This document shows, in pieces, positions 16,566 to 53,276 of a DNA stretch of 64,000 nucleotides. Position 1 is the stretch's first letter. Every line of letters begins with the position of its first letter. The position numbers and the translations under genes were made by a program. The DNA is from Paludibacteraceae bacterium (GTDB lineage: Bacteria; Bacteroidota; Bacteroidia; Bacteroidales; Paludibacteraceae). The DNA lies in contig JAFSTO010000040.1 of the NCBI GenBank assembly GCA_017450435.1, positions 1 through 64,000 of the forward strand, given 5' to 3'. The notes under the pieces were generated by a model. The model worked only from the letters and a program-made list of their open reading frames with translations, made no database searches and was not told the DNA's origin.

Positions 16566-16721
16566 CGTTGTGAATAGTGTTTGTTTCTTGTAGGTCCGAC
16601 TTCCCATAGCGTAGCGGTCTTTGAAGAGAAAGATTGGAAGCAAACAAAACAAACATTAACCTGAAAAATGAAAAATAAATTATTATCAACTATATTTATT
16701 AACCTAAAAAACACAACGATC

Positions 16722-33938: not shown

Positions 33939-34679
33939 TTATTTCTTAGCGCCAAACTGGTCGAGGCAGAAGTAGGCGGGGGTGTTCATACCATAATCGC
34001 CGTTGTCTGATGAGGTGAGTGTGAACGACACTTTGCTGACTTGTCCGAGGGCGGAGAGGTCGCAATATTGCCAGTCTTTCACAATCTCGCTCTTGCCGTC
34101 GCGGAAATCTGCAAGATAGAACTCCACCTTACCGGTCTCTTTGTACTCCACCTTTTCGTTCTCTTTGACCGTGTTATAGCCGGTGATGGTCAGCAAGAAC
34201 CAGTCTCCGTTGCCGAACTTCTTAGCGTATGTGTCGCCATTCTCCATCGAAGCAACGGCGTAGGCATTGTTACATAAGTAGCAACCCGGCACTGTCTTTG
34301 GCTCTGTGAGCTTAATCTCAAGAGCAGCACCTTCGCTGAACAGATCTTGGAAACATACGGCAAACTGGTTACCCTCAGCGGCTCCGCCTGCTGCAGAGTG
34401 ATATTGGTCTGCAAAGTCGGCATAAGTGTTCTCTTGTTGTGCGCTGACAATGAAGTTGTAGAAGTACGTTCCACTATAGGCACTGCCGGTTGTGAAGGCG
34501 AACTCACCGCTGGTCCAGCCGTGAATACCGTCCTGTTCGGCAGTGAAAGTTGCGTTGGTACCACCATTACCTACAGTTACATCTTCAAAGGTGGCAACAT
34601 TAAGAGCGGGTTCCTTGTCGCAGGACACCATGAGCAAGCCGGCTGCTACAGCAACGCTTGCAAAAAAAAGTTTCTTCAT
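33939..34679 (-). CDS. DUF4465 lipoprotein, last gene of the cobalamin-riboswitch operon
   Basis: 246 residues with a signal peptide ending in the lipobox LLMVSC (about residue 20). The mature part is one DUF4465 domain: SAAGGAAEGNQFAVCF, then CYLCNNAYAVASM, FLLTITGYN, VEFYLADFRDG, CDLSALGQVSKVSFTL and PAYFCLDQFG. The same ordered blocks occur in the C-terminal region of the 2191-residue protein at 39522-46097. The function of the domain is not established to my knowledge. As the fourth gene behind a cobalamin riboswitch with a TonB receptor and a BtuG-like propeller, a surface-exposed corrinoid-binding or receptor-accessory role is the reasonable inference. A BtuH-type role is conceivable but unproven. 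Confidence 0.85.
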   Translation of the reverse strand: MKKLFFASVAVAAGLLMVSCDKEPALNVATFEDVTVGNGGTNATFTAEQDGIHGWTSGEFAFTTGSAYSGTYFYNFIVSAQQENTYADFADQYHSAAGGAAEGNQFAVCFQDLFSEGAALEIKLTEPKTVPGCYLCNNAYAVASMENGDTYAKKFGNGDWFLLTITGYNTVKENEKVEYKETGKVEFYLADFRDGKSEIVKDWQYCDLSALGQVSKVSFTLTSSDNGDYGMNTPAYFCLDQFGAKK

Positions 34680-34760
34680 AATTAAAATTAATTTAATTGG
34701 TTGATAATTATTGTTGTACTATATACAGCGTTAGCGTTCTTTCGGCTTCGTTGTTTTACG

Positions 34761-34794
34761 TGACGGTGATAAACATCGTCTCTACCCTTGAGCG
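34761..34794 (+). repeat. Dispersed hairpin repeat family, copy D
   Basis: TGACGGTGATAAACATCGTC followed by TCTACCCTTGAGCG. The hairpin is kept by paired changes (GACGGTG with CATCGTC). It lies in the gap between the BtuG-like and DUF4465 genes. Confidence 0.6.
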
Positions 34795-34797
34795 CTC

Positions 34798-35916
34798 TCA
34801 CTTCACTTTGATTATATGGCCCGGTATATCTCCTGTTCTGTGTTTGGATACTAATGTGCCGTTTTTGTCATATCGGTATAGCACACCCGGTGTTACGTAG
34901 TCGCGGGCATCAGTGAGGTAGATATCTTCGCTCTCCTCATCCACGTAGATAGAGTATGGCATCCGTATTTCGGCACTATTGGATAATGTAATCGGTGTGC
35001 GCTGAAGTGTTTCTATACTGAGATAGCCATAGCTGATGTTATTGCCGGTGAGCATGTCTCCTGAATAAAAGTATAGTTTTTGACGACAAAGGTACATCTT
35101 TGTGGCTGCAAAGCCTAATCCCTGCAGATTGCCGCTTGTAAGGTCAAGACGATATAACTCAGCCGGCAGAGTGTTATAATTCCCCTGTGAGCTTATAAAC
35201 AGTGTATTATGAATAGAGTCATAAATAATAGATTCAAGATTTTGTGCCACAGTTAAGCGTTGTGTTTCTTCGAAGCTGTCAAGAGATATCACAGATACGG
35301 TTGAGTCATAGCGAGGTGCCATGTATCCACCGGAGTTGGCAACGTATAGCATATCGCCGGCGATAGCAACGCCGTTAGGCTGGTAACCCACAGTGCAGGT
35401 CGCGACAACTGCCAGGGTTGTGGTGTCAATTTTGGCAACATAGCCAAGCTGTTTATATTCGGGATTGTTGTAATCGACAGGTCCGGCATAACTGCTAACA
35501 TACGCGTAGCCGGCTGCAAAGGTTATATTGCGGCAGTTAGGCACCTCTATCTGTCCAATGCGGCGACAACGCAGGTCGGTTACCTCTATCTTGCCGCTCA
35601 CGTTGACTATTATATACATCTTATTACCATAGACGGCTATATCGTTTCCTACATCTCCTAATTCCTTCACCACATTCGGATTCATGCGGGGGTAGATGTC
35701 GCGAATAATACTATCTGCAGCAATGTCATAGAGATCGATAGTCGCCTTGTTTGACCCCATGTTTCCTTCATTAAGAATGTAGAGTACAGCGGCGCTACTG
35801 TCGTTCAACTCAACAGGCGTGTCCTGCACTACATCAGCGTGCCGGCAGCCGATACACAGATTGATAGCAGCGAGGATGGTAAGAGGGATGATTTTTTTCC
35901 GGTATGTTGTTTTCAT
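34798..35916 (-). CDS. btuG: BtuG-like seven-bladed beta-propeller lipoprotein
   Basis: 372 residues with a signal peptide ending in lipobox INLCIGC (about residue 24). The mature part is a YncE-type beta-propeller: repeated blades of the form AVYGNKMYIIVNVSGKIEVTD, TFAAGYAYVSSYAGPV, VAIAGDMLYVANSGGY, ESIIYDSIHNTLFISSQGN. BtuG proteins of Bacteroides are surface propellers that bind vitamin B12 very tightly and cap the BtuB receptor. Here the gene is directly after the BtuB-like gene (5-base gap) in a cobalamin-riboswitch operon, so the assignment rests on fold plus context. Ligand binding cannot be confirmed from the sequence. Confidence 0.8.
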   Translation of the reverse strand: MKTTYRKKIIPLTILAAINLCIGCRHADVVQDTPVELNDSSAAVLYILNEGNMGSNKATIDLYDIAADSIIRDIYPRMNPNVVKELGDVGNDIAVYGNKMYIIVNVSGKIEVTDLRCRRIGQIEVPNCRNITFAAGYAYVSSYAGPVDYNNPEYKQLGYVAKIDTTTLAVVATCTVGYQPNGVAIAGDMLYVANSGGYMAPRYDSTVSVISLDSFEETQRLTVAQNLESIIYDSIHNTLFISSQGNYNTLPAELYRLDLTSGNLQGLGFAATKMYLCRQKLYFYSGDMLTGNNISYGYLSIETLQRTPITLSNSAEIRMPYSIYVDEESEDIYLTDARDYVTPGVLYRYDKNGTLVSKHRTGDIPGHIIKVK

Positions 35917-35921
35917 GTTGA

Positions 35922-38054
35922 TTATATAATGACTCTTATTATACCTTTCCCGTTGATTCCCGGCATCGGGTAGTTGGGTATTACTTCGTATTGCTGGTTG
36001 AAGATGTTGTTTATTTCCAATCCTATCTGTATTTTGGTCGTGTTTGCGGTTTTGTTTTGACTGACAGGTATTGTCCAGCTTGCGGCGAGGTCGTGGGTGT
36101 ACCAGGGCTGAACGATGTTTGCCGGAATGTTAGCTGAGGATGTAAAGCGTTGTCCGACATAAACAAAAGAGTAAGAAGCTGTCAAACCTCTCCAAAGTAA
36201 AGTGCCTGTTGCGGAGCCGGAGTGGCGGGGAATATACGCAACCTGTCCTTTATACGTTCCCCCATACTGGTCGTTGTCGTCAGGGTTGGTTTTGTCAAGG
36301 GCCTGCTGAAAGGTGTACGATGCGTGCAGGTAGAGGGTCAGATCGTCCGTTGGGCGAGTTGTGGTTCGAAACCGAAAACGAAGGTCGGCTGAGAGTTCGG
36401 CACCTGTTATTTCAACATATCCGAGATTGAGCATCATCCAGCGATACTGCGAGTTTCCTTTCGGGATAGCCACAATCTTATTCTCCACCTGATTGAAATA
36501 TGCGTCAGCCTTCAGTCCTGTTTCCACGCTGCGCAAGCGAGTGACGTCGGTGGCAAAAAGTCGGCTCCACTCGCTACCAAGGTCGTACTGTCGAGTCTTT
36601 TCCGGTTTGAGGTTACTTGAGCCGACATCGGTGTAATAGAGGTCGTTGAAGGTCGGCATACGATAAACCATCTTGTAGAAGCCGCGTATGAACCATTCCT
36701 CATGCAAAATAGGTTTGACGTTGACAAATACTGCGGGAGTCACGGCGTTGTAGGTGTTTTTAGTAGTACTTGGTACTTTGACACTCGGTACTTTGTCCTT
36801 GACGTATGTCTCTAAGACGGAGGCTTGTGCTTTGAGCCACTTGTATGATACTGCTGTTGCAGCGCTGACAAGAACGGTGTGTCTTATCGGATTGCTGAAG
36901 TCTGTCAGGTTAGCTTTCAGCCAATTGAGGTCGTAGTCTGCTGCGGCTGCAATGTCCCAAAAAGGGAACAAGCGCCAACGGGCTGAAGCAGACATATATA
37001 CTTGCTGCTGTAGAAAAAGGTTGTCGATATACATCAGGGTGGTGTCAGGATTGAGGTAGCGCAACTTGTCATTGGCATATTTGGCGTTCACCTGTAGGTC
37101 GGTTCGTTTGCCGACAGAGGTAGTATAATTAACTTGCACAAAAGCGTTGCGGTCCCACTGACGTTGGCTGTTCTTCCAGACGTTGTTGACTATTGCTCCG
37201 GGTATTCCTCGCTCGCTTTGGTAGTAGTAGCCCTTGACGTGCCATTTGCCTCGTTCTGTATATCCAAAGAGTCCGGCTTCTGCGCGGAAGGCTTGTACAT
37301 CTCCGTTTTCACGTACTGCAGTGGTATCCCAAGCTACGCTGCCGTCTGCAAGCTCCTTGCGGTAATGGAAATGATAACGTCCTGTCGCATAAGTGTATTC
37401 GGCATTGGCAGAAATGTGAATATTGTCGCTCAGGCGCTGCTCGTAAATAACTGAAGGGTTGGCGAGACCAAAAGTGCCTCCTCGCATCTTCACTTCCACA
37501 TTATATGTTTTGTCATGGCTGAACTTAGGCCGTTTGGTTTTTAGATAAAGCGTTCCGGCACTGCCGAAGTCGCGGGCGGGCTGGAAGATTTCTGATTTCT
37601 GACCGTTGTACAGAGCCACTTCTTCGAGGTTGTCCATTGAGAATTTTCCGAGGTCCACTATGCCGTTTTGTGCGTTGCCTATAGCTATACCGTCATAGAA
37701 CACAGCGAGGTGCTGACTGCCCATCGAACGTAGGTCAACGGTCTTCATACCGCCCACGCCGCCGTAGTCTTTCAACTGGATGCCGGAGAAGTATCTCACT
37801 GCATCTGCAACTGACGTGGTGGCTAAGGCATGGAGCTGTTCACCACGTAGTCGTTGCGGTGGAGTAACGTCCTTCTCCTGACGGGCTACAACCTCTATCT
37901 CATCAATGCGGAAGAGGCGGGCAATAGAGTCAAGATATAGAGAATCAGACCCGCTTTCACCCCACGGCGCGTTGCTTGCGGGGACACCGCTGTTGGCTTT
38001 GAGGCTCAGGGATAGAAGAATGGAAAATAATATTGCAGTCAGTTGGTTTCTCAC
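35922..38054 (-). CDS. btuB: TonB-dependent outer-membrane receptor, BtuB-like (cobalamin)
   Basis: 710 residues: signal peptide, a plug domain at about residues 50-190 (LHALATTSVADAVRYFSGIQLKDYGGVGG, then TVDLRSMG and YDGI, the classic plug core) and a 22-stranded barrel ending in VIRVII. The size (about 700) is that of BtuB-type rather than SusC-type receptors, and there is no CarboxypepD_reg-like N-terminal extension. The TonB box is probably in the acidic stretch near residue 48 (DEIEVVARQ). Its ATG overlaps the stop of the upstream exported protein by 4 bases. Specificity for cobalamin is inferred from the riboswitch and the BtuG-like neighbour. Confidence 0.88.
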   Translation of the reverse strand: MRNQLTAILFSILLSLSLKANSGVPASNAPWGESGSDSLYLDSIARLFRIDEIEVVARQEKDVTPPQRLRGEQLHALATTSVADAVRYFSGIQLKDYGGVGGMKTVDLRSMGSQHLAVFYDGIAIGNAQNGIVDLGKFSMDNLEEVALYNGQKSEIFQPARDFGSAGTLYLKTKRPKFSHDKTYNVEVKMRGGTFGLANPSVIYEQRLSDNIHISANAEYTYATGRYHFHYRKELADGSVAWDTTAVRENGDVQAFRAEAGLFGYTERGKWHVKGYYYQSERGIPGAIVNNVWKNSQRQWDRNAFVQVNYTTSVGKRTDLQVNAKYANDKLRYLNPDTTLMYIDNLFLQQQVYMSASARWRLFPFWDIAAAADYDLNWLKANLTDFSNPIRHTVLVSAATAVSYKWLKAQASVLETYVKDKVPSVKVPSTTKNTYNAVTPAVFVNVKPILHEEWFIRGFYKMVYRMPTFNDLYYTDVGSSNLKPEKTRQYDLGSEWSRLFATDVTRLRSVETGLKADAYFNQVENKIVAIPKGNSQYRWMMLNLGYVEITGAELSADLRFRFRTTTRPTDDLTLYLHASYTFQQALDKTNPDDNDQYGGTYKGQVAYIPRHSGSATGTLLWRGLTASYSFVYVGQRFTSSANIPANIVQPWYTHDLAASWTIPVSQNKTANTTKIQIGLEINNIFNQQYEVIPNYPMPGINGKGIIRVII

Positions 38055-39043
38055 TTTATTGTATGCCCGAGAATGTTGTATTCAATACCATTTTTCTGTA
38101 TGATTACATGACCGTTATATATTATTTTGCAGCACTGTTTGTTTGCCTCATGTTGTGTTAGTCGTAGTGCGGCTTGCGGGTGCAGGTCTTGTGCTCCGCT
38201 TATCTCCGTGCTTGTCTCGCCTTTGTTGCCGCTGTCGGCAGATACACCGGTTTGTACACGGACAAAGTCAATACTCTCAAGCTGCGCAGGTTCGCCATTT
38301 TCGTCCACAGCCCAGTCGATATCTATAAATCCTGCCGGATGTCCGTTAGGGTGGTTGTCCGCATATCCGTAGTCGAAGACGAGCCACGAGTGTGTAGCGT
38401 CTTGAAGGACGTTGGTAGGGAGTAGTGTGCCGGTTAGGGTGTAGCGCGAACCAAGCCATTTAGGATAGTAAGCTTGCGGGTGAAAAGCGTTGTGATAGAC
38501 AGTAATAGTGTTGCCGTCGATGTCTGTTCCGGTAACATTGAGAGTGTCGTTTGTAGGGCGGCGATAGGTGATACTGTAGTGTTGTCGGCTGCGGCTATAT
38601 TCGGAGCCGGCTATCTCATACCACGTGTCGTCAGGCATGCCGTTGTTGTTGTCATCACGACTCACATAAACGATGCCGGGCTCAGCACTGCCTTGTTGAC
38701 GCCCCTGCTCGTCAATCTTCGAGTAGAAAGCGTTGCCTAATAGCGCTAAATCACAAGAGTCAGGCAAATTAACTATAGGGTGGTCAAAGCCGAATGTGAC
38801 GTATCCTCCCCAAGCTCCAAGACATACAAGAGAGCCATCGACGCCGCATAGACGTTCGTTCACTTTGTTAAGAATTGCCTCAGCATCATCGCCGTCCTCC
38901 CATTCTGGCATAAGGTTAGTGAATTGGCCGGGAGCCGGCACATATTCATAGACACGAGAAATATACGGGTTATCAGTCTCACCCGCAAATAATGCCACTG
39001 CCGAGATAAGCAGTAGATATACGATAGTAGAAAAATTCTTCAT
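38051..39043 (-). CDS. Exported surface protein, first gene of the cobalamin-riboswitch operon
   Basis: About 330 residues. I prefer the ATG at 39043, which opens the signal peptide MKNFSTIVYLLLISAVALFAG, over the ATG at 39055 four codons earlier. The mature protein contains SLVCLGAWGGYVTFGFDHPI, NNNGMPDDTWYEIAGSE and FIDIDWAVDENG, blocks seen in proteins annotated as cell-surface protein in Bacteroidetes BtuB loci. The C-terminus ends IIQKNGIEYNILGHTIK, a short tail like that of the protein at 16722-21224. The protein has no lipobox. Overlap with btuB implies tight co-expression. It may be an accessory corrinoid-capture protein; no biochemical role is visible. Confidence 0.75.
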   Translation of the reverse strand: MKNFSTIVYLLLISAVALFAGETDNPYISRVYEYVPAPGQFTNLMPEWEDGDDAEAILNKVNERLCGVDGSLVCLGAWGGYVTFGFDHPIVNLPDSCDLALLGNAFYSKIDEQGRQQGSAEPGIVYVSRDDNNNGMPDDTWYEIAGSEYSRSRQHYSITYRRPTNDTLNVTGTDIDGNTITVYHNAFHPQAYYPKWLGSRYTLTGTLLPTNVLQDATHSWLVFDYGYADNHPNGHPAGFIDIDWAVDENGEPAQLESIDFVRVQTGVSADSGNKGETSTEISGAQDLHPQAALRLTQHEANKQCCKIIYNGHVIIQKNGIEYNILGHTIK

Positions 39044-39089
39044 GTTGTAGCTCATTTCGCGAGAGCGTTAAACAAATTTATTTACTTGC

Positions 39090-39366
39090 AAGGTCTTCTG
39101 ACTTAATCCGCCGTCTTTGCTGCCTTCCCGGCAACCGGACATCTCTGTCCAAGTTGTTTGTCCAGTGGCATGTCAGCGTTTGTCTGACAAAAATGCAAAT
39201 AGGCTTTCGGATATCACAGCAGCGCGTCTGTACAGGAATGGAGAATGATACTTGGTACTTGGCCCCTTTGTACTTTTGAGAGACGGTTAAAAATACCGTA
39301 TCTACCCTTGGGCGAAACAATGTTTGTCACTTGCTACTTGGTAGTTCTCTTCACCTGTTTCCCTAC
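39090..39366 (-). promoter_or_regulatory. Cobalamin riboswitch 1, upstream of the BtuB operon, with an internal insertion
   Basis: On the - strand from 39366: AGGGAAACAGGTGAAGAG, then CCTGTACAGACGCGCTGCTGTGA, the B12 box GCCACTGG (39169-39162), CCGGGAAGGCAGC and the 3' signature GTCAGAAGACCT (39102-39091). These are the conserved blocks of the cobalamin riboswitch. The 154 bases at 39091-39244 match riboswitch 2 with one difference by eye. Between GGTGAA and the CCTGTACAG block this copy is about 78 nt longer and contains a dispersed hairpin repeat. Its short distance to the start codon (about 35-47 bases) without a strong terminator suggests control of translation. Confidence 0.93.
39273..39320 (+). 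repeat. Dispersed hairpin repeat family, copy E, inside riboswitch 1
   Basis: TTTTGAGAGACGGTTAAAAA followed by TACCGTATCTACCCTTGGGC and GAAACAA. The corresponding place in riboswitch 2 lacks it. Confidence 0.75.
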
Positions 39367-39401
39367 AACAAATAAATGAATTAAACCAATGATTTTCGGT
39401 G

Positions 39402-39433
39402 CAAAGTTACTGCTTTTTCCTGATATATGCAAG
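39402..39433 (-). promoter_or_regulatory. Promoter of the BtuB operon
   Basis: On the - strand, CTTG at 39433-39430, 20 bases, TAACTTTG at 39409-39402. The 20-odd bases around the -7 box are nearly the same as in front of riboswitch 2. Confidence 0.7.
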
Positions 39434-39444
39434 ATAATTTTTAT

Positions 39445-39478
39445 CAAACAATGCAGGCTGCCCGTCGGGCAGCCTGCA
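39445..39478 (-). terminator. Terminator after the giant gene
   Basis: A perfect 12-bp stem, TGCAGGCTGCCC / GGGCAGCCTGCA, with a GTC loop, followed on the - strand by TTGTTTGATAAAAATT. A second, weaker hairpin (39478-39523, AAAAGCACC/GGTGCTTTT) precedes it and overlaps the stop codon. Confidence 0.8.
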
Positions 39479-39521
39479 AAAGCACCAAAGTATTTTTGGC
39501 AGAAAACAATGTAAGGTGCTT

Positions 39522-42500
39522 TTAGTTGTTCTGTTTTATAATCTTTGTTACGGTTGTGCCGTGCTTAGTGATTACTTTTATCCAATAAGGTCCGGCTTGC
39601 CATGTGTCAGTGTTGATACTTATATTTCCGTTACTTTGCGTGGATTTAATACATCTACCGTCGGCTGCGTAAACATTGATAGTAGCTGAATTTTCGGAGC
39701 TTACGTTTACTGTTCTGCTAACCAATGTTGGGAACACTCGGCAATCAGCCGCAGCTCTGTCATAACCGACAGCCGTTCCTTCATAGCTAAAACTGAATAG
39801 TTTGTACTGCTGTTTGCCACGTTGTGATGAGCGGATAAGCAACTGAGTAGCACTATCGCTGTTCGACGAGAGAGTGAGTGTCAGACTGCCGTCAAGGGTT
39901 AGATAGGCGGTTATACCGCTCTCTTCTTTGCTGACGATATCGTATGTCACTTTCCCTCTTGCTTCATGCTCGAAGTAGTCGGACAGATTGATGGTTCGCG
40001 TATCGTTGATATACAATGTTGCGAGAGTGTCGATATGCGGTTTTCCTCCGAAGTTATCAAGTGCAAAATACGTAGGTGTCGTAAATCCGTATTCATCACT
40101 TTTTGTGGTGAACATGTCGAACCGCAGTTCAGTAACCTGGCCGAGTGATGTGAGGTCAAGCCATTGCCATGTGTCAAGTGAGTAATGCTCATCAGCGTTA
40201 CTGTCGCGGTAGTCTGCAAGGTAGAAATCAAACGTGCCGGTTAGATTATTATCATTGTATCCACTCACCGTTAGGAGAAGGTAGTCAGCTTGTGTCTCGT
40301 CTCCTGTTTTGTTCTTCTTTCCAAAAGCAGGATTAGCGTAGTCTCCGTTAAGGACGGCGTTCTGCGTGTAGGCAGTGTTAGTAATATAGAAACCGCTTAT
40401 AGTCTGCGGCTCGCCGATGTTGCTCAGACGCACCGTGTCAGCGTATCCGGCAAAGCCCCAGGTGAAAGGAGCCGAGTAGTATGCTACGGCGAAGTTATCC
40501 CCCTCATATGCGCCTCCTGCTGCTGAGCGGAACTGATCAATAGCGTAGTTACCGGTAGCCTCTGCGCCGGTGTCGGACGAGATAGCGTAGCCGTTATATG
40601 CATCCCATTTTTTATTGGGTGTGTTGGCAAAGGCGTATGTGCCGCTGTATAGCCAAGCCGGAGTATTATCTGCCCAAGCTGTCTCAACATGACGATTACT
40701 GCCTGAAAGAGTATATTCTTCAAATCCCGCCGGTGTGCTCTCGCGTCTTACTCTGATGGTGGTGGTCAAGTACGCACTCTGTCCCTTTGTATCGCTAACC
40801 TGACATACATATTCCGTTGTCTGCTCTGCTGTGGTGAGGAGAACGGATGAGTTGGCAAGCGTGTCGCCGAAGACGGTGTACCAAACGAAGGAGTAGGGAC
40901 GAGCTTGTGCGTATTCTTGTGTTATGATTGCGGTGAGATTTATCTCAGAACCTTCATCCACCCAAATGTCGGCTATCGGCTCGAGGACGATAGGACGAAT
41001 GGTCCAGGCAGTGGTGAAGGACGCCGATGATAACACGGTGTCTGAGGCATCGCCAAGAGGTGATAGCAGTACTATATATGCTTTATATTCTGTTTCTTCT
41101 GTCAGTCCGCCTGCTTGGAAGGTTACCGCAATATCCGAAGTCAGGTGTACATCACGGCCGCTTGTAATAATGGTATTGACGTCAGGAATATCGGCAGTGG
41201 CAGGAAGAACAACAACTTTGGCATTTCCATGAGAAGAGGATAACAGAACAATTTCGGCTGTGGTGTCGGTTACGTTCTGTATATGAGGATAGCCGTTTGT
41301 CATTGTCGGTACGACGAATAGACTCGAATCATATTCGTATGCACCAATAGTAGGAGTGGCAGCTCGTGTTTTGCCTGTTATATCTTTAGTTATTCCTTCA
41401 ATATTTACGCCGCTGATGAGGTTACCGGCGTTGCGGAGCAGAAGAAGAGAGTTGGAGGCGAATAATGTCTGCTCATTCAGGTTTCCATCTTCAGCTGTGG
41501 CGTCAACGGCAGCCAGCCAATCAGAGAACGTGGTTTTGGTATTATTGATAGCCCCTGATGCACTATATAGAGCGTTATGACTGTAGGTCCCTTTGACGCC
41601 GAAAATACAATTACCGGTACCGTTGTTCTGAATGATATTGTTCGTTGCTTTGAGCTGTAAATTATTAAAGTTCTCAAGCCAAAGTGTAGAGGTGGAGGTA
41701 TATGTTCCGTTAATAAGGAGTGTGTTGTATGACACATTCACTTCGCGTTGCCACTTCAGACGCAGACAGGATGATGGACTATTAGCAGTTGTCTCCACAT
41801 ATACAGCGTTGTTGTAGATGTCAACTACACTGCCCTCAGCGCAGTTCGTTGCACCATTGGTGGCGAAATAAATAGCGTTGGCGTATCCTCCATTGCATTT
41901 AAGCGTTATTGTGTTGCCGGCAATGACGTAGTGGCCGGACATTATTCTAACGTCCAGCGCGCGTGCGTCATTGGCTTCTATTCCTTCACAAACGATGTTG
42001 TTACCTTCCACTGTCAGATTTTTTAGAGCGTTGCAATAAATACCGGTCTTTTCCTGATTAGTGAAAGTGTTGCCTTGTACGGTGTAGTTGTTTCGATGGG
42101 GGTGAGTAGCGTAGCTGCCTTGTGAGAAGTTGAGAGCGTAATACCCTCCGTTGAAACTACAGTTTTTGATTGTCAGGTTGTCGCAATTGGCATTATCTGC
42201 ATCCTCTGAGATGACGCGTATTAGATGGCAGTTCTGCGATGTGTTACTACCCCTAACTGACGTTGTGAATACGCATCCGTCCAAGGTGGCGTGATGACTT
42301 TGATTTTTTAGAACAAGGCAAGCTGCATAACCGGTTTGTTCGGTGCTAAAGGTGATGTTTTTCAGCGTTAGATAGTCCGTTCCGTTGATGGTCCAAACAC
42401 CCTCACTGTCGCTTGTCTCATTTGACCGGAAAATAACATCCGAAGCTTTTCCTGTTGCTGATTGGAAGGTGATGTGTGCCGCGGCTGAAGTACCTACCAC

Positions 42501-45500
42501 GTCATTGAAAGTTATATGTTCGTTGTACGTGCCGGTATTGACAACAAAGACAACGTTGCCTTCAATGCCAAGGATGTTCATTGCATCAACGGCAGTCTGT
42601 ACGTTGCGGAAATCACCGTCATTGCCGATTGTGTAGATACCGCTCATTCCGTGTGCCAGTTTTGTTTGGGCGGTCTCGGATACTGTCGGTTGAATACTCT
42701 GCGAGCCGGATGCGAGAGAAAGAAGCTTAACGCTAACAATATCATCGTCATCTGCCGTAGCAGAGGCATCTGCCGTAACCCAGAAGTAGTATGTGCCGCG
42801 TTCGCTTATAGTATAAGGACTGACGAATAATTCAGTATCTGCGAATCTATCTATAGTACCTGTTTGATATATTTTGGTAGAGGTTACGTTTTCGTTGCTG
42901 GTCAGCGTTAGCGCGTCTATAGTGATGGGGGTGCGGTCACCGCTTACGCTTACTGCCACCTTAAGCATCTTCAGGTCTTTTGCGCCTACCGTCTGTAAGG
43001 CATCAGATATATCGGTTGAATAAACACTATCTATAGAGAGGTCAACAAGTAAGTGTTCGCGTATCTCTATTTCCCAACCATCGTTGGCGGAACCATAACT
43101 GCCGTCTTTGAAATAGATGGTAAGAGAACCGTCTGTTGCTGAAGAAACATATATATCACCAACATACTTGTTCGGACTGCTATAGTTATAAGATATAGTT
43201 GCGTCAGCAGAGCCCTCGTGGCTTGTGCCGTAATAAATCTTTACATCAGCGCCGTTTGATAATTTATAATTCTTCACTTCCGCTTCCACAGCGTAACCTT
43301 CATGCTCAGGAACGAAGGTCACGTAGCCTTCTAATCCTTTGGTGTATGTTCTGTCGTCTCCGCCATCGTCATAGAACATCAGACTATTAGAACCGATTGT
43401 GAAAGTGCCGTTATCGCCCTGAGATAAGTATAAAACATTTTTGATAATGCGGCTTCCGGCAGGGTCTGCATTTTCTGCAGAAATGTTCTGACCATCTATT
43501 CTGGTATATAATAACGCAGCGTCAACTATTGTTTCAATAGTAGCGTTTTGCTTGATAGATGCAGCTATGGTTAAGTTGTTATCATACTCTTGAAGGACGT
43601 AATCTGCCGGAAGTTCGAGCATTACTGTTTCGGCTGAAGGCTTAACTGCGAGGACAACATCCTCTTTGAGCAGATAGACGGAGTCAATGTTGGCTGATGT
43701 GCCTTTTAAACTAATGGTTATATTTTCGAGTATAAGGGGATTAAGCGTACCTAAGGTTTTGATGTTGATGTATAGTAGCTGAGCTTGTTCCTCCCCCGGT
43801 GTTACAAGTTTGGTGCTTGCTTGTTCTACGCTAATACTATCCACCGCCATATCGTGTGGTGTGTATTCAGAAACGGCAGCGTGCCATCCGCCGGCGACGT
43901 AATATGATGAGGTCGTATTAGGATTGAAAACGACTGTCAGAGCGCCGTCCGGTGAAGCGGAACGCAGGTAATAAGGACGTTTGCCGTTGTTGTCAAGCTC
44001 CCACAGTTTGGTGCCGCTCGTTCCCTCACCCGAATATACTATATATTTGGCTTTGGTCCCGTAAGAAGAGGATGAGTAATATACGTCAAAGTCGGAGTAG
44101 TTAATTTCTATAAGGTTGCCTTCAGTTGCCGGCTTGAACACAATTATCTGCTCGCAGTTTTCTGCTTTGTAGTTGCTGCTATATTCGCTTGCCGCAGTGT
44201 GAGTGTACTGCCAAATTCCGTTGATATTAAAGGTTTGTGAACCGCAAGCTTGTACTGCCGTGTTGTTTACGACAACGTTACCTCTGATGTTGTCAAACGA
44301 GCGGAAGTCGCTATTGTCGTAGAACACAGCTTTTACGGGAACAATAGTAATCCTTTCTTCGTTAACAGCATCGGCAGATATGTCGCATGCTACCCAGAGA
44401 TAGTTATCTCCTTCGCGAAGGGGTATGCCGTTGGTTATTTCTACAACGACATTGTCGGTCAGCACGTCTGCTTCACCTATCATTCGACTGTCATATAGCT
44501 CTGTGGCTGATGGCGTTAGATAGATACGCACATGCGACACACGCTCAAAGGTGTTGTTTAGATTGAGAAGAAGTTGCTTGATTGTCAGAGCCGGTTCGGT
44601 GTTCTGTGTTTTCATATTAAAGCCGAGTATCGGCACGTTGGTCGCTCCTGCTTGGCTCTCAGTTACCGCAGCCGGTAATTGCTCGGCCGACTCTGCTATC
44701 ATTGCAACAGGTGTGAACTCTGACACGACACTCTCCCAGCCGTCTTTCAACTGACTGCTGATACTAACGTTATTAGTGTGTTTTACTGTTAACGAGCCGT
44801 CTAAAGCAGTACTCTTTATGGTTATGTTACTGAACTCACCGCCTTCCTTGTCGCCACTGAATAGAAGCGTACCTGTTGTTCCGCTACCGTCGTATATATA
44901 CAAGTGATCAACCCTGTCGGTGGATGAAGCGGCATACTCTGTATAATGCAAACTGATTTTACTGAAGTTGATTTGCACTTTTTTTCCGTTAGTTTTCGGT
45001 CGGAAAGTAACAACACCTGAGAAACCGCTGTTTATCTTGCCGTTTTTGCCGCCATCATCGTAGAAGTATAGGTCTCGACTAACATCGTAAGCGGCGTTTT
45101 CTGACATAAGAATAACAGGTTGAACGGTTAAAGTGGCAGGTGTCGTTTTCTCGAAGTCGGCGAACACGCCTAATGAGGTGGTGATACCGGTAATGTTTAT
45201 CGTTGTGGTAGCATCGTAGGGAGCGCCGGAAAGGACGTCGCTGCCTAAACAGAAAATGTTTTTGCCGTTGGTTAGTGGCTGCGGAGTGGTTAGGTTATAT
45301 ATCAATATGCCGTCATTCTCGCTTATTGTACCATCCAGTAGAGTCAGTTCGGCTACTGATGCTGCCTGACCGATGTATAGTTTGATGTCAGACGCATCAA
45401 TGACGCCGGAGCCGGATGTGGTGAAACTGACAGATTGCAGCATTACGGGTGAGCTATAGCCGTCTGTGGTGATAGAGAAACCGCTTAAGCTAACGTCTTG

Positions 45501-46097
45501 CTTACCTTGCCAAATGACCGTGTCAACAAATGAGTGTTCTGCTGCGGCTGACGTCAGGGTCATGGGGGACAACGTGACCGAGGATACGGTTGCTTTCCAA
45601 CCACTGATGGCTTTCGCATATTTATAATGATAACATACTGACAAGGCACCGCTTGCATCAGAAGATATATAGGTCTTTTCGGTAAAGGTGCCGTCTAATT
45701 TTTCTATCATTTTGTCTGTTGACGGAAACTCGGTTGCAACAACTCCTGAGGTTGTAGTAGGATAGGTGACGGAGCTGACATCAAATATCCCGTCATAGAT
45801 TTTCAAATAAGCCGGCCAACTTGCACCGTCGTTGCGAACGTCGATGTTTTCAAATTCAATTTTGATTGAATTGCCGGGTTCTGCCGGTTGGAAGATTGTT
45901 GTGGCAAACGAGTTGTTAGAGCTACTACTGCTGATGCTTGTGTAGCCGTTCATGTCATAAAAAGTGACCGGACTGCCGGCGCTTACCATGATTGTTTGAT
46001 GACCGAATTGTGGCATTCGCACATCTTCTGCCTTCAGCATGTGAGGCAGAATAACAAAGGCTAATAATAGCCAAAAGAAAGTCTTAAATTTGTTCAT
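39522..46097 (-). CDS. Giant riboswitch-controlled T9SS-secreted protein: CUB-like modules, beta-helix, DUF4465
   Basis: 2191 residues with a signal peptide (FWLLLAFVILPHMLKA). Layout by eye: four CUB-like beta-sandwiches starting at about residues 35, 340, 630 and 905 (recurring YDDGG, F.P...G..V.I.F, IYDG and GSLTV blocks); interleaved modules resembling the sialidase-associated BNR_assoc_N domain (IKLYIG, VRIYLTP, LREGDNYLWVACDIS); a right-handed parallel beta-helix at about 1150-1530 (many LTIKNCSF, LTVEGNNI repeats); FN3/Ig-like modules at about 1590-1780; a DUF4465 domain at about 1790-2013; and a type A T9SS C-terminal sorting domain at about 2115-2191 (RVFPTLVSRTVNV ... IKVITKHGTTVTKIIKQ). 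It has its own cobalamin riboswitch and promoter and is monocistronic. It is probably exported and anchored to the cell surface when B12 is scarce. Its substrate or ligand is unknown. Confidence 0.9.
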   Translation of the reverse strand: MNKFKTFFWLLLAFVILPHMLKAEDVRMPQFGHQTIMVSAGSPVTFYDMNGYTSISSSSSNNSFATTIFQPAEPGNSIKIEFENIDVRNDGASWPAYLKIYDGIFDVSSVTYPTTTSGVVATEFPSTDKMIEKLDGTFTEKTYISSDASGALSVCYHYKYAKAISGWKATVSSVTLSPMTLTSAAAEHSFVDTVIWQGKQDVSLSGFSITTDGYSSPVMLQSVSFTTSGSGVIDASDIKLYIGQAASVAELTLLDGTISENDGILIYNLTTPQPLTNGKNIFCLGSDVLSGAPYDATTTINITGITTSLGVFADFEKTTPATLTVQPVILMSENAAYDVSRDLYFYDDGGKNGKINSGFSGVVTFRPKTNGKKVQINFSKISLHYTEYAASSTDRVDHLYIYDGSGTTGTLLFSGDKEGGEFSNITIKSTALDGSLTVKHTNNVSISSQLKDGWESVVSEFTPVAMIAESAEQLPAAVTESQAGATNVPILGFNMKTQNTEPALTIKQLLLNLNNTFERVSHVRIYLTPSATELYDSRMIGEADVLTDNVVVEITNGIPLREGDNYLWVACDISADAVNEERITIVPVKAVFYDNSDFRSFDNIRGNVVVNNTAVQACGSQTFNINGIWQYTHTAASEYSSNYKAENCEQIIVFKPATEGNLIEINYSDFDVYYSSSSYGTKAKYIVYSGEGTSGTKLWELDNNGKRPYYLRSASPDGALTVVFNPNTTSSYYVAGGWHAAVSEYTPHDMAVDSISVEQASTKLVTPGEEQAQLLYINIKTLGTLNPLILENITISLKGTSANIDSVYLLKEDVVLAVKPSAETVMLELPADYVLQEYDNNLTIAASIKQNATIETIVDAALLYTRIDGQNISAENADPAGSRIIKNVLYLSQGDNGTFTIGSNSLMFYDDGGDDRTYTKGLEGYVTFVPEHEGYAVEAEVKNYKLSNGADVKIYYGTSHEGSADATISYNYSSPNKYVGDIYVSSATDGSLTIYFKDGSYGSANDGWEIEIREHLLVDLSIDSVYSTDISDALQTVGAKDLKMLKVAVSVSGDRTPITIDALTLTSNENVTSTKIYQTGTIDRFADTELFVSPYTISERGTYYFWVTADASATADDDDIVSVKLLSLASGSQSIQPTVSETAQTKLAHGMSGIYTIGNDGDFRNVQTAVDAMNILGIEGNVVFVVNTGTYNEHITFNDVVGTSAAAHITFQSATGKASDVIFRSNETSDSEGVWTINGTDYLTLKNITFSTEQTGYAACLVLKNQSHHATLDGCVFTTSVRGSNTSQNCHLIRVISEDADNANCDNLTIKNCSFNGGYYALNFSQGSYATHPHRNNYTVQGNTFTNQEKTGIYCNALKNLTVEGNNIVCEGIEANDARALDVRIMSGHYVIAGNTITLKCNGGYANAIYFATNGATNCAEGSVVDIYNNAVYVETTANSPSSCLRLKWQREVNVSYNTLLINGTYTSTSTLWLENFNNLQLKATNNIIQNNGTGNCIFGVKGTYSHNALYSASGAINNTKTTFSDWLAAVDATAEDGNLNEQTLFASNSLLLLRNAGNLISGVNIEGITKDITGKTRAATPTIGAYEYDSSLFVVPTMTNGYPHIQNVTDTTAEIVLLSSSHGNAKVVVLPATADIPDVNTIITSGRDVHLTSDIAVTFQAGGLTEETEYKAYIVLLSPLGDASDTVLSSASFTTAWTIRPIVLEPIADIWVDEGSEINLTAIITQEYAQARPYSFVWYTVFGDTLANSSVLLTTAEQTTEYVCQVSDTKGQSAYLTTTIRVRRESTPAGFEEYTLSGSNRHVETAWADNTPAWLYSGTYAFANTPNKKWDAYNGYAISSDTGAEATGNYAIDQFRSAAGGAYEGDNFAVAYYSAPFTWGFAGYADTVRLSNIGEPQTISGFYITNTAYTQNAVLNGDYANPAFGKKNKTGDETQADYLLLTVSGYNDNNLTGTFDFYLADYRDSNADEHYSLDTWQWLDLTSLGQVTELRFDMFTTKSDEYGFTTPTYFALDNFGGKPHIDTLATLYINDTRTINLSDYFEHEARGKVTYDIVSKEESGITAYLTLDGSLTLTLSSNSDSATQLLIRSSQRGKQQYKLFSFSYEGTAVGYDRAAADCRVFPTLVSRTVNVSSENSATINVYAADGRCIKSTQSNGNISINTDTWQAGPYWIKVITKHGTTVTKIIKQNN

Positions 46098-46129
46098 ATC
46101 ATTGCTAATTTATTTATATAAAGACGAGT

Positions 46130-46184
46130 TGGAATAATAAAAACAACACACCTATCCTCGGTTGTCCGCAACCGAGGATAGGTG
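46130..46184 (-). terminator. Attenuator-like terminator between riboswitch 2 and the giant gene
   Basis: Read on the - strand, ACACCTATCCTCGGTT and AACCGAGGATAGGTGT form a perfect 16-bp stem with a 6-base loop, followed by GTTGTTTTTATTATT, only about 50 bases before the ATG at 46097. There is no T-run on the + side. It is best read as the expression platform of riboswitch 2. Confidence 0.8.
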
Positions 46185-46309
46185 TATGTTAAATACTTGT
46201 CAACGACTTCAATCGTTGAATGGTGGTATACACCGGCAAATGTTTTTGCTCGAAAACAAGTCATTATTAAGCCCGTTACGCGAGAGCTGTTACAATGTAA
46301 ATGTTTTCG

Positions 46310-46510
46310 GGAGGTCTTCTGACTTAATCCGCCGTCTTTGCTGCCTTCCCGGCAACCGGACATCTCTGTCCATGTTGTTTGTCCAGTGGCATGTCAGCGT
46401 TTGTCTGACAAAAATGCAAATAGGCTTTCGGATATCACAGCAGCGCGTCTGTACAGGAATGGAGAAAAATACTCTTGTCCTTTGTGCTTCTCTTCACCTG
46501 TTTCCCTTTT
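46310..46510 (-). promoter_or_regulatory. Cobalamin riboswitch 2, upstream of the giant gene
   Basis: The same conserved blocks as riboswitch 1: GGGAAACAGGTGAAGAG (near 46507-46491), CCTGTACAGACGCGCTGCTGTGA, B12 box GCCACTGG (46390-46383), CCGGGAAGGCAGC and GTCAGAAGACCT (46323-46312). It is compact, about 196 nt against 274 nt for riboswitch 1. The 742 bases between the giant gene and the next gene hold the attenuator, this aptamer, its promoter and repeat copy F. Confidence 0.95.
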
Positions 46511-46646
46511 CCGAAAACTATGTGTTTTATGTTGTTATTCTATTTTACACGGAAAAAACAAATGTATTTGCAGATTTTGACGCAGTTACCTATGTCGTCT
46601 GTAAAATAGTTTGTATTCATCTGTGGTATTTAATCCTTTCTTTGTG

Positions 46647-46678
46647 CAAAGTTACTGCTTTTTTTCGAGTCCGACAAA
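46647..46678 (-). promoter_or_regulatory. Promoter of the giant gene
   Basis: On the - strand, TTTG at 46678-46675, 20 bases, TAACTTTG at 46654-46647. Confidence 0.7.
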
Positions 46679-46839: not shown

Positions 46840-47778
46840 TCACAGCTTATAGTTTTCTATGTCAATAAGATTATTGACGATAGCGTAGATGGTTAAGCCT
46901 GCAGTGGAGTGAATCTTTAGTTTTTTGCTTATGTTTTTTCTATGACTGATGACAGTGTGCGGTGATATACATAGTACGTCAGCAATTTCTTTATTACTGA
47001 GTCCTTTGACGACCTGCACAAGGACATCGTTTTCTCTGTCAGAGAGTGCTTCAGCAGCTGTGGACTGCGACATTGTAAGAGTCTTTTTAGGTGTGTGTTT
47101 TTTTAGTTGTCGTACAGCCGGCAGCAGTATTACGTCCTCTATAGCGCAGTGCGTGGCAAGTTCGTGTTCGGTGTTAAAGATATCGTATAGTGCAGAGTTA
47201 AGAAGATTGTTCTGCTCTGTTTCGGGGTAGTATTTAATAATCAGGCTTTTGAGTTCTGATAACTTGTTGGCAATATGTTGGTCATCTACAGCCCTGTGCT
47301 GGTGTGCGAAGACCTCTATTGACATCTCAGGTTCCTCTCCTCGCAGCATCTGCTCCACATAAGGAAACATCTGTTCATTTTCGTGTTGCATGTGAATAGA
47401 AATCTCGTTGACGTATTCATCGAAGAATCGAATGATAAGCATTGGAATCTTCGATTCCGGGTTGCTGTAGTTGATAGCTTCAATCAGTTTCTTGCGAAGC
47501 ATGGGAAAGACAAATTCGAAGAAATATGAGTGTGCGTTTCTTAGATATGCTATGAGGGTAGGAAGTGATAGTTCGGCGAAATTTATATAGTTGTTGAGTT
47601 TATCTTCCTCAGTAGCACGGTAAAATAGTTCGTAATTAACCACTGTAAGAAAAGTAAGTGTGTGTATATTATGTTCGTTGCACACTTCTCTGATGGTCTT
47701 TTCTCCGACACCGAGTGGCAGACCGAATCTGCCTATTATTTGCAAAGCTTCGTGCTCGTGTGCGATGAGGTCACACAT
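46840..47778 (-). CDS. RIC/hemerythrin-like sensor fused to a LuxR-type HTH regulator
   Basis: 312 residues from the ATG at 47778, preceded by AAGGAGA; the ATG 21 bases upstream is less likely. Residues 1-60 resemble the ScdA/YtfE N-terminal region (GVGEKTIREVCNEHNI) but lack its Cys pair. About 70-220 is a four-helix hemerythrin-like domain with candidate di-iron ligands in NAHSYFFEFVFP, HMQHENEQMFP, HQHRAVDD and HELATHCAIEDVILLP. The C-terminal about 65 residues are a LuxR HTH (LSDRENDVLVQVVKGLSNKEIA, SPHTVISHRKNISKKL). Hemerythrin-like RIC proteins deal with nitrosative and oxidative damage to iron centres, so this is probably an NO- or O2-responsive transcription factor. The targets are unknown; it is monocistronic. 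Confidence 0.85.
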   Translation of the reverse strand: MCDLIAHEHEALQIIGRFGLPLGVGEKTIREVCNEHNIHTLTFLTVVNYELFYRATEEDKLNNYINFAELSLPTLIAYLRNAHSYFFEFVFPMLRKKLIEAINYSNPESKIPMLIIRFFDEYVNEISIHMQHENEQMFPYVEQMLRGEEPEMSIEVFAHQHRAVDDQHIANKLSELKSLIIKYYPETEQNNLLNSALYDIFNTEHELATHCAIEDVILLPAVRQLKKHTPKKTLTMSQSTAAEALSDRENDVLVQVVKGLSNKEIADVLCISPHTVISHRKNISKKLKIHSTAGLTIYAIVNNLIDIENYKL

Positions 47779-47848
47779 TTTATTTGTCTCCTTATACATG
47801 TTGTTGATGTTTGATTATTGGTGTTATCTTTGAGAGAGGCTTAGCTCT

Positions 47849-51833: not shown

Positions 51834-53276
51834 ATGCGTTATGGCTGTCATATAATAACGCTGCTGTTCTGTTTGTTGGCAGGTGTGACATTGCGGGCAG
51901 GAGACTTTGCAGAAACAGCTTTAAGACTGAATGAAAAATCGCTGCCCATATTGAATCTCTCTTTTGATGAATCGGCGTTGCGTGCTACCGGCTTCATTGC
52001 TTGTAAAGTGGATTTACGTGATTATCACGGTCGTCTTGAGGGGGGAAAAACAGCAGTGTGTTATGAGGCACAGATACGGCATCGTGGTGGTTCGTCGCTG
52101 AGATACGAAAAGAAGTCGTTCGCTATAAAACTGAAAAACGAGCAAAACAAGAAACTGAGTGCAGAACTATTCGGCATACGCAAATCAAACAGTTGGATAC
52201 TTGATGCGATGGCGGTTGACCGTTTGCGTATGCGTAACAGGCTGTGTTTTGATGTTTGGAATGAGATTTCACCGATGCCTTACGATACCGATTATGGTAA
52301 TCGTAACGGCACAAACGGCGAGTTTGTGGAGGTTTTTGTCAATGGCACTTATTTCGGGTTGTATTGCCTCACAGATAAGGTTGATCGAGCGCTGCTCGGA
52401 CTAAAGAAAAAACCGAAACAGAATCCGGACGGAGCTTCACACGGTTATTTATATAAAGGTGTATCTTGGTCAGGCGCACATTCGCTGAGAGGCTGTTACA
52501 TGGAGCCTACTAATAGTGACACGTGGCTTAGTTTTGAGATAAAGTACCCTGATAATAAGAATACGATAGCGCATTGGGAACCGCTGAAAAATCTGGTTGA
52601 TTTTTGCAGTGACAGCGTCTCGGCTTTGAAGTTCAGACTACAGTGGAAGGAGCATTTTTATGAAGATAATCTAATTGATTACTTTGCTCTATTAATGACA
52701 ATGAACATTGGAGATGCACCGTATAAGAACACGTATCTGTCAGTAGCTGATTATCCGAACGACCACCGTTTTCTTATCACTCCGTGGGATATGGATATGT
52801 CTTTGGGTGGTAATTATGACGGCAGTTATAATGACACAGTTGCATCGCTTGACAGGTTGTGTGATGTGGCTCCATATAACAGGTTATACGGGGAAGATAT
52901 AAATGGTTTTCAAGGAAAGGTGCATCGACGTATCATCACTTTGCAGGATAGTGTGCTTTCACCGACGCGTTTGTATGAGCAGATGGCACGTTATGCAACG
53001 TTGTTCGAAGAGTCAGGTGCTTGGAAAAGGGAGGTGGAACGTTGGAACAACAACCCTGTTGCTTTGAAAGCTGATATTCGAGGGGAGATTGGATATGTGT
53101 CATCTTGGTACAAGAGAAATTACGACAATCTTCGCACCGAATGTGAAAGCAGATTGGATAGTGAGAAACGAGACCAAAGAAGACGTTTGATTATATCTAT
53201 TGTTTCACTTATTTTGATAGTATTTGGTATATCTAAGTATAAGACATATTTAAACAAAAATCATATATTACTATGA
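51834..53276 (+). CDS. CotH-like kinase, exported and membrane-anchored
   Basis: 480 residues with an N-terminal signal peptide (LLFCLLAGVTLRAGD). The CotH fold follows: LPILNLSFDES, AQIRHRGGSSLRYEKKSFAIKL (the RGxSS motif of CotH), LFGIRKSNSWILDAM, NGTYFGLYCLTDKV (about residue 170), the metal-site candidate YFALLMTMNIGDAP and PWDMDMSLG (about 320). CotH proteins are atypical protein kinases acting on secreted or surface proteins. A C-terminal hydrophobic segment (about 455-470) with flanking Arg and Lys could anchor it. It sits between DUF2764 and subunit A of the V-ATPase, and its stop overlaps the start of A (ATGA). This placement is unusual. Confidence 0.82.
   Translation: MRYGCHIITLLFCLLAGVTLRAGDFAETALRLNEKSLPILNLSFDESALRATGFIACKVDLRDYHGRLEGGKTAVCYEAQIRHRGGSSLRYEKKSFAIKLKNEQNKKLSAELFGIRKSNSWILDAMAVDRLRMRNRLCFDVWNEISPMPYDTDYGNRNGTNGEFVEVFVNGTYFGLYCLTDKVDRALLGLKKKPKQNPDGASHGYLYKGVSWSGAHSLRGCYMEPTNSDTWLSFEIKYPDNKNTIAHWEPLKNLVDFCSDSVSALKFRLQWKEHFYEDNLIDYFALLMTMNIGDAPYKNTYLSVADYPNDHRFLITPWDMDMSLGGNYDGSYNDTVASLDRLCDVAPYNRLYGEDINGFQGKVHRRIITLQDSVLSPTRLYEQMARYATLFEESGAWKREVERWNNNPVALKADIRGEIGYVSSWYKRNYDNLRTECESRLDSEKRDQRRRLIISIVSLILIVFGISKYKTYLNKNHILL

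Follow-up and report, generated by a model that had tools for sequence, protein, structure and literature searches.

A giant DUF4465 protein with a type IX secretion sorting domain, encoded behind its own cobalamin riboswitch in a Paludibacteraceae bacterium

The cobamide-capture set known from Bacteroides consists of BtuH, BtuB, BtuG and BtuJ. The structure 8BLW has been described as the BtuB1G1 complex, whose BtuG1 carries a BtuH-like C-terminus, and 7BIZ as BtuH2 with B12 (PMC10404256), while most of these B12 proteins are reported to rise in Bacteroides thetaiotaomicron grown without cobalamin (PMC12751083). The BtuJ proteins belong to family DUF4465, for which B12 binding has been demonstrated in eight divergent members; Y146 and Y245 of BtuJ1, in the DE helix and the HI loop, respectively, are named as conserved B12-binding tyrosines, and a lipoprotein signal, predicted in over 70% of DUF4465 proteins, is hence common but not defining, the remaining proteins bearing periplasmic signals (PMC13398666, a 2026 survey). 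Here, we analyse a locus (positions 33939..46678) within a window of 64,000 nucleotides from a Paludibacteraceae bacterium (GCA_017450435.1, contig JAFSTO010000040.1, positions 1 to 64,000), in which a btu operon adjoins a gene for a giant protein with a DUF4465 domain of its own, each of the two units lying behind a cobalamin riboswitch. We consider the giant most likely to be a B12-capture megaprotein exported by the type IX secretion system (T9SS), which would be made under B12 scarcity as part of a two-unit cobamide-scavenging system.

The giant protein and the paired riboswitches

The giant gene (39522-46097, minus strand) encodes 2191 residues. The protein starts with a signal peptide, recognized by eye; BNR_assoc_N modules and weak CUB-like ones follow, and a BtuJ-type DUF4465 domain and a type A sorting domain of the T9SS lie towards the C-terminus. 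The DUF4465 domain (residues 1830-2016; 40050..40610, minus strand) matches PF14717 with 8.7e-41 and 140.6 bits, against a cut-off of 25, as well as the PDB entry 9hmu (1.4e-20), and the sorting domain (39531..39719, minus strand) is recognized by both Por_Secre_tail and TIGR04183 (43.6 bits, cut-off 23). A preliminary description of this DNA gave the open reading frames (ORFs), the length of 2191 residues, the BtuB/BtuG operon, the two riboswitch units and the sorting domain as we find them, but it took the giant to be merely adhesin-like and part of an undescribed system, having missed its DUF4465 domain; the giant thus shares a B12-binding domain family with the neighbouring lipoprotein, which explains why it should be under B12 control.

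The DUF4465 domain of the giant is 35% identical to that of the neighbouring BtuJ-type lipoprotein. A profile of 22 such domains (20 of 25 mapped orthologous domains, with five near-copies left out, plus the two of the window; alignment A1) matches 9HMU (3.8e-37) and 9FCT (2.6e-23), and also 9I2L. Counted along the profile alignment, Y1910 and Y2010 of the giant align with Y146 and Y245 of BtuJ1, and the HI-loop tyrosine is kept in all 22 domains. Some 105 residues separate the domain from the sorting domain, and in front of it extends an arm of approximately 1,790 residues, made up of CUB-like and BNR-associated modules and of others that are beta-helix-like by eye and by resemblance to relatives; BNR_assoc_N (PF14873; 3e-11 for the whole protein) covers two stretches, the best of them at residues 513-586 (44340..44561, minus strand). 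The N-terminus, MNKFKTFFWLLLAFVILPHMLKAED, reads by eye as a signal peptide without a lipobox cysteine, which protein P0005 does have. The genome encodes SprA (2700.9 bits) and the T9SS sortase NF033707 (1016.9 bits), which we take to be PorU, and contains 26 matches to the type A sorting domain (E ≤ 0.001). Since a DUF4465 domain with its tyrosines, a sorting domain and genomic T9SS genes occur together, the most plausible reading of the giant is a B12-binding protein exported by the T9SS.

Scanning with cmscan and Rfam 15 (RF00174, gathering score 31.5 bits) revealed a cobalamin riboswitch aptamer of full model length upstream of the giant gene (46292-46530, minus strand; 57.4 bits, E 1.3e-11) and another upstream of the btu operon (39070-39388, minus strand; 46.8 bits, E 1.3e-8), and these are the only RF00174 matches genome-wide (assembly of 2.65 Mb, 96% complete; E ≤ 0.001). 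The aptamer cores, counted back from AGACCT, are identical at 154 of 155 positions and the pair is 91% identical over the full alignment (233 aligned columns), while neither copy exceeds 83% identity to any copy from the other genomes of the set; because each copy is nearer its neighbour than any other copy in the set, the sequences suggest duplication or gene conversion. Across seven same-genome pairs (the window, L054, L055, L058, L059, L064 and L071) identity ranges from 0.80 to 0.91, compared with a between-genome median of 0.75, 95th percentile of 0.88 and maximum of 1.0, and copies within one genome are not invariably closer than copies across genomes. The P1 closing stem is kept in both window copies, as GUUUUCGG/CCGAAAAC in one and AUUUAUUUG.../...CAAGUAAAUAAAU in the other (read from the alignments); the stem sequences differ, yet each pairs. 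A kissing loop between L5 and L13, with an expression platform, is a defining feature of cobalamin riboswitches, and the CGCG of a small post-aptamer hairpin could, by eye, pair with ACGCG of the aptamer.

The two units also share an upstream element. An identical 17-mer, AAGCAGTAACTTTGCAC, precedes both riboswitches (46644-46660 and 39399-39415, both minus strand), with no further match in the window when one mismatch is allowed and none in shuffled sequence. Upstream of the giant's leader it overlaps a match (46647..46678, minus strand) to the pattern TTTG-N20-TAACTTTG, presumably a Bacteroidota-type promoter, which occurs eight times in the window against 1.34 expected; the other copy of the 17-mer, at 39399..39415 (minus strand), would be the -7 region of the btu operon promoter.

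Linkage of giant genes to riboswitches among relatives

When 358 genomes of the same family were searched with the giant, 30 loci were obtained, its own included (L051-L080), 27 of which belong to the same genus. A cobalamin riboswitch lies 5' of the giant in 28 of the 30. Neither of the two checks proposed earlier, covariance scoring of the two regions and riboswitch linkage of orthologues, refuted the B12 link. The tally of 28 comprises the locus studied here, 24 loci seen directly, L073 and L076 after widening of the flanks, and L080, whose riboswitch was found on another contig bearing the matching N-terminal part; the remaining two, L074 and L077, are truncated at contig ends. Of the 30 frames, 26 contain the DUF4465 domain; two others are truncated (L077 and L079), that of L075 is disrupted and has the domain in the next frame, and the complete frame of L078 lacks it.

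Gene order also places the giant near btu genes. Among the 25 loci analysed in this respect, the giant comes first in 17 and a BtuH homologue (44-47% identical to P0002, the window BtuH) stands between the switch and the giant in eight; L073 and L076 are likewise btuH-first, giving 10 of 30 loci in total. In seven others (L061, L063, L065, L066, L067, L070 and L074) a BtuH homologue begins 3 bases after the stop codon of the giant, which thus adjoins btuH, before or after, in 17 of 30 loci. At L097, a wider stretch of L075, a single riboswitch is followed by the broken giant and then by BtuG, BtuH, BtuJ and BtuB homologues. The giant is therefore "lone", as the preliminary description had it, in this genome but not in these relatives. 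Six loci (L054, L055, L058, L059, L064 and L071) resemble the window in having a second riboswitch 3' of the giant.

The leaders suggest how the two units may be controlled. Between aptamer and giant ORF lies a strong terminator-like hairpin (46146..46187, minus strand; 19 pairs, 9 of them G-C, then TGTTTTTATT), which has by far the longest stem among 11 terminator-like sites in the window (7.9 expected), and it is because of this hairpin that transcriptional control of the giant is suggested; a search by folding for an antiterminator in this leader found the terminator alone. By our own hairpin rule, 8 of the 17 leaders with the giant first carry such a hairpin and none of the eight btuH-first ones does, a contrast that is no more than suggestive, as the latter leaders are only 0-89 bases long. 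The btu operon aptamer ends 14 bases 5' of the start codon, a distance that suggests translational control. Another terminator-like hairpin (39452..39478, minus strand; 12 pairs, 9 G-C) lies 3' of the giant gene.

Within the family, 12 further DUF4465 frames of more than 1,000 residues were fetched (L084-L095), eight of which are preceded by a same-strand riboswitch, often with btuB, btuG, btuH or another DUF4465 gene intervening; in L088 and L090 the contig end is reached before any riboswitch. Other members of the genus (L086-L093) encode DUF4465 proteins of 1,318-1,408 residues ending in a short tail, and those of L087, L091 and L093 close BtuB-BtuG-BtuH-DUF4465 operons 3' of a riboswitch.

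At the level of the order, DUF4465 is present in 120 of 295 genomes and, outside the window, 14 matches from 13 genomes fall in open frames of more than 1,000 residues, one frame holding two. A riboswitch lies 5' of 11 of these 13 giant frames, directly in nine, whereas one ORF intervenes in L039 and L046. The two exceptions are L035, whose frame fills its contig, and L047. A Pfam scan of seven of these giants found Por_Secre_tail in four and not in three (set: L036, L037, L040, L043, L044, L045 and L046). L037 (3969-13052) encodes 3027 residues 3' of a cobalamin riboswitch, with MAM, CUB, four BNR_assoc_N stretches, a clostripain-family protease domain, DUF4465 and a T9SS sorting domain; L038 equals it in length and ends.

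A DUF4465 tree of 98 rows was built by a quick method, with domains shorter than 120 residues and loci duplicating another one omitted; 28 of its 95 inner branches are open and long branches are flagged. The giant's domain falls in a starred set of 45 rows (40 giants and five small proteins, three of them pieces of giants), and the window BtuJ is placed outside it. The label "giant" (frame of at least 1,000 residues) needs 10 changes on the tree, or at least 7 by starred branches, some arising from pieces counted as small. We read the giants as one large old clade and at least two further lineages (L039-L042; L035, L037 and L038). Recent fusion of the adjoining btuJ into the giant was rejected, as the window BtuJ falls elsewhere in the tree.

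Proposed function and alternative explanations

The arrangement can be rationalized as follows: (i) scarce B12 would leave the genes behind both riboswitches on, the first unit supplying BtuH, BtuB, BtuG and BtuJ; (ii) the giant, the output of the second unit, would cross the inner membrane via its signal peptide and the outer membrane via the T9SS, then either staying at the surface or being released; (iii) it would capture B12 through its DUF4465 domain and hand it on to BtuH/BtuG/BtuJ and BtuB; and (iv) the arm may position the DUF4465 domain, or bind a surface or a carrier. By analogy with B. thetaiotaomicron, the giant is probably switched on when B12 is scarce, which is how we would reword the earlier statement that it is "switched on together with B12 uptake".

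Several observations weigh against this reading. L078 (1495-6378 in gene orientation) has a riboswitch 5' of a complete frame that ends in a short tail and lacks DUF4465; because the switch is retained there without the domain, the arm might itself have a B12-linked function, or this copy may be decaying. The giant search gave no hit in G245, of the same genus, or G041, of the same family, both of which have BtuB, BtuGH and BtuJ homologues, and the giant is therefore not essential. No riboswitch was found in the 14 and 12 kb fetched around the DUF4465 frames of L094 and L095 (1099 and 1098 residues, one genus), nor in the 1.6 kb, made up of another ORF and 0.3 kb, that remain up to the contig end at the order-level locus L047. 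The DE tyrosine is Tyr in 20 of the 22 aligned domains and W in L073 and L076. As for the arm, the Pfam CUB match in the window giant stays below cut-off (17.0 versus 21.4 bits), and a PDB search with the profile of one CUB-like plus BNR-like module matched no solved structure. Finally, the C-termini of the 30 family giants, classified by eye, comprise seven type A domains, 20 with another tail and three with the end unseen.

The other tail (consensus approximately K.L.NGQLYIIR.GK.YNAQGQ.VK) ends the window BtuH and, by eye, those 20 giants, and in BtuH and L061 it falls outside every Pfam or NCBIfam match. A 13-row profile finds it 75 times in the genome at E 0.01 and 62 times at 1e-5, compared with 26 for type A; in the window it matches BtuH (38054-38155, minus strand; 60.7 bits, by a profile containing that very tail) and 21111-21221 (plus strand), the latter at the end of a 1518-residue protein with F5/8 type C and fn3 domains (16668-21224, plus strand) adjoining a family 3 glycosyl hydrolase gene (14022-16496). 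The tail ends 0-2 residues before the stop codon in 12 of 12 cases inspected, and 17 of 18 fetched tail proteins (loci L104-L132) have a signal-peptide-like start by our own rule, the remaining one being cut by a contig end; for comparison, a stricter rule picks out 10 of the 35 window ORFs. At 1e-5, it was matched in only 3 of 118 other genomes of the order, once in each, while SprA is found in 112 of 119. The tail may be a lineage-specific second sorting signal.

T9SS type A cargo can be either held at the surface or released, and the giant might accordingly be a freed B12 chaperone, a version compatible with our proposal that we regard as possible but doubtful. Its appeal, apart from this dual fate of the cargo, lies in the BtuJ proteins of B. 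thetaiotaomicron, described as acting on vesicles away from the cell (PMC12751083); the size and repeated modules of the giant are, however, better suited to a surface structure.

We judge it unlikely that the giant is mainly an adhesin whose N-terminal modules bind glycans or matrix, with DUF4465 only sensing B12 or playing a minor part and scarcity serving as a signal of an attachment site. Some 1,790 of the 2,191 residues do precede DUF4465, BNR_assoc_N and weak CUB matches are present (CUB exceeding its cut-off in the order-level relatives L036 and L037), and L078 retains its riboswitch without DUF4465. However, among the four of 30 giants in which the domain was not seen, two are cut and one has it in the next frame, the HI-loop tyrosine is invariant in the aligned domains, and btuH is adjacent in more than half of the loci (17 of 30). 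An adhesin unrelated to B12 was rejected, since the giant carries DUF4465.

The near-identity of the two window cores (154 of 155) would also fit a recent duplication that landed by chance 5' of an unrelated gene, but with 28 of 30 loci carrying switches that have themselves diverged (between-genome median 0.75), and with P1 stems that differ in sequence while both pair, this is highly improbable, and chance placement was rejected in view of the linkage conserved in relatives.

Returning to the B12-capture megaprotein, a bolder extension, which we hold to be improbable and offer as speculation, is that several T9SS-bearing Bacteroidales lineages make surface giants for "B12 piracy": the arm, with CUB/BNR-type modules and, in one lineage, a clostripain-family protease, would hold or cut proteins or glycans that carry B12, the DUF4465 domain near the anchor would take the vitamin, BtuH/BtuG/BtuB would import it, and all would be made only when the riboswitch reports B12 scarcity.

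The btu operon and comparison with known systems

The remaining unit is, by sequence, the BtuH-BtuB-BtuG-BtuJ set, all on the minus strand. Its first gene (38051-39055, 334 residues), noted earlier only as a "surface protein", is btuH (PDB 8blw_B residues 393-660, 2.2e-61; 7biz, 1.1e-40); no lipobox was seen in the product, which ends in the short tail KIIYNGHVIIQKNGIEYNILGHTIK. It is followed by btuB for a TonB-dependent B12 transporter (35922-38054, 710 residues; 8blw_A BtuB1, 8.3e-127; Plug domain), btuG for a beta-propeller lipoprotein (34798-35916, 372 residues; 8blw_B, 7.5e-27; 8ptf_A, 9.8e-27; DUF5074; lipobox LCIGC read from the sequence) and a gene for a DUF4465 lipoprotein (33939-34679, 246 residues; PF14717, 1.4e-47; PDB 4jqr, 9fct, 9hmu and 9i2l; lipobox LLMVSC likewise read), already recognized as such and here specified as BtuJ-type. 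Elsewhere in the window, a 319-residue protein with hemerythrin and LuxR-type DNA-binding domains is encoded 5' of the giant's unit (46840-47799, minus strand), and at 51834-55030 (plus strand) a CotH-kinase-family gene lies directly 5' of a gene of the ATP synthase alpha/beta family with V/A-type domains.

Neither giant nor T9SS-exported DUF4465 proteins were found described in the literature searched, with subscription papers and preprints mostly outside that search; the words "type IX", "T9SS" and "secretion" are all absent from the main text of PMC13398666. Here, several families of the order are seen to carry DUF4465 on exported proteins of 1,000-3,000 residues, encoded 3' of cobalamin riboswitches, and vitamin capture in these bacteria therefore probably uses the T9SS route too. 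The analysis also offers a likely function for one class of giant "adhesin-like" genes.

To conclude, the locus can be set against three described systems. The closest to the giant are BtuJ1 and BtuJ2 of B. thetaiotaomicron (DUF4465, IPR027828; 9FCT, 9I2L) and D5EK51 of Coraliomargarita (9HMU), with which it shares a DUF4465 domain with both B12-contacting tyrosines and a gene beside a BtuB/BtuG system, 3' of a cobalamin riboswitch; BtuJ1 and BtuJ2 are, however, lipoproteins whose solved chains have 256 and 305 residues, whereas the giant lacks a lipobox and adds about 1,790 residues before the domain, a T9SS sorting domain after it and a riboswitch of its own. The T9SS type A cargo adhesins and other large sorting-domain proteins of Bacteroidota resemble it in signal peptide, modular repeats and Por_Secre_tail (TIGR04183), but the giant bears DUF4465 and sits 3' of a cobalamin riboswitch. 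Finally, the operon is most like btu locus 1 of B. thetaiotaomicron (BtuB1, BtuG1, that is, BtuGH, BtuH1 and BtuJ1): the window BtuB is nearest BtuB1 (8blw_A), BtuG and BtuH each match one half of BtuG1 (8blw_B), and there is one DUF4465 lipoprotein. It differs in that BtuG and BtuH are encoded separately, with BtuH lacking a visible lipobox and ending in a short C-terminal tail, and in that this chromosome adds a second riboswitch unit with the giant.

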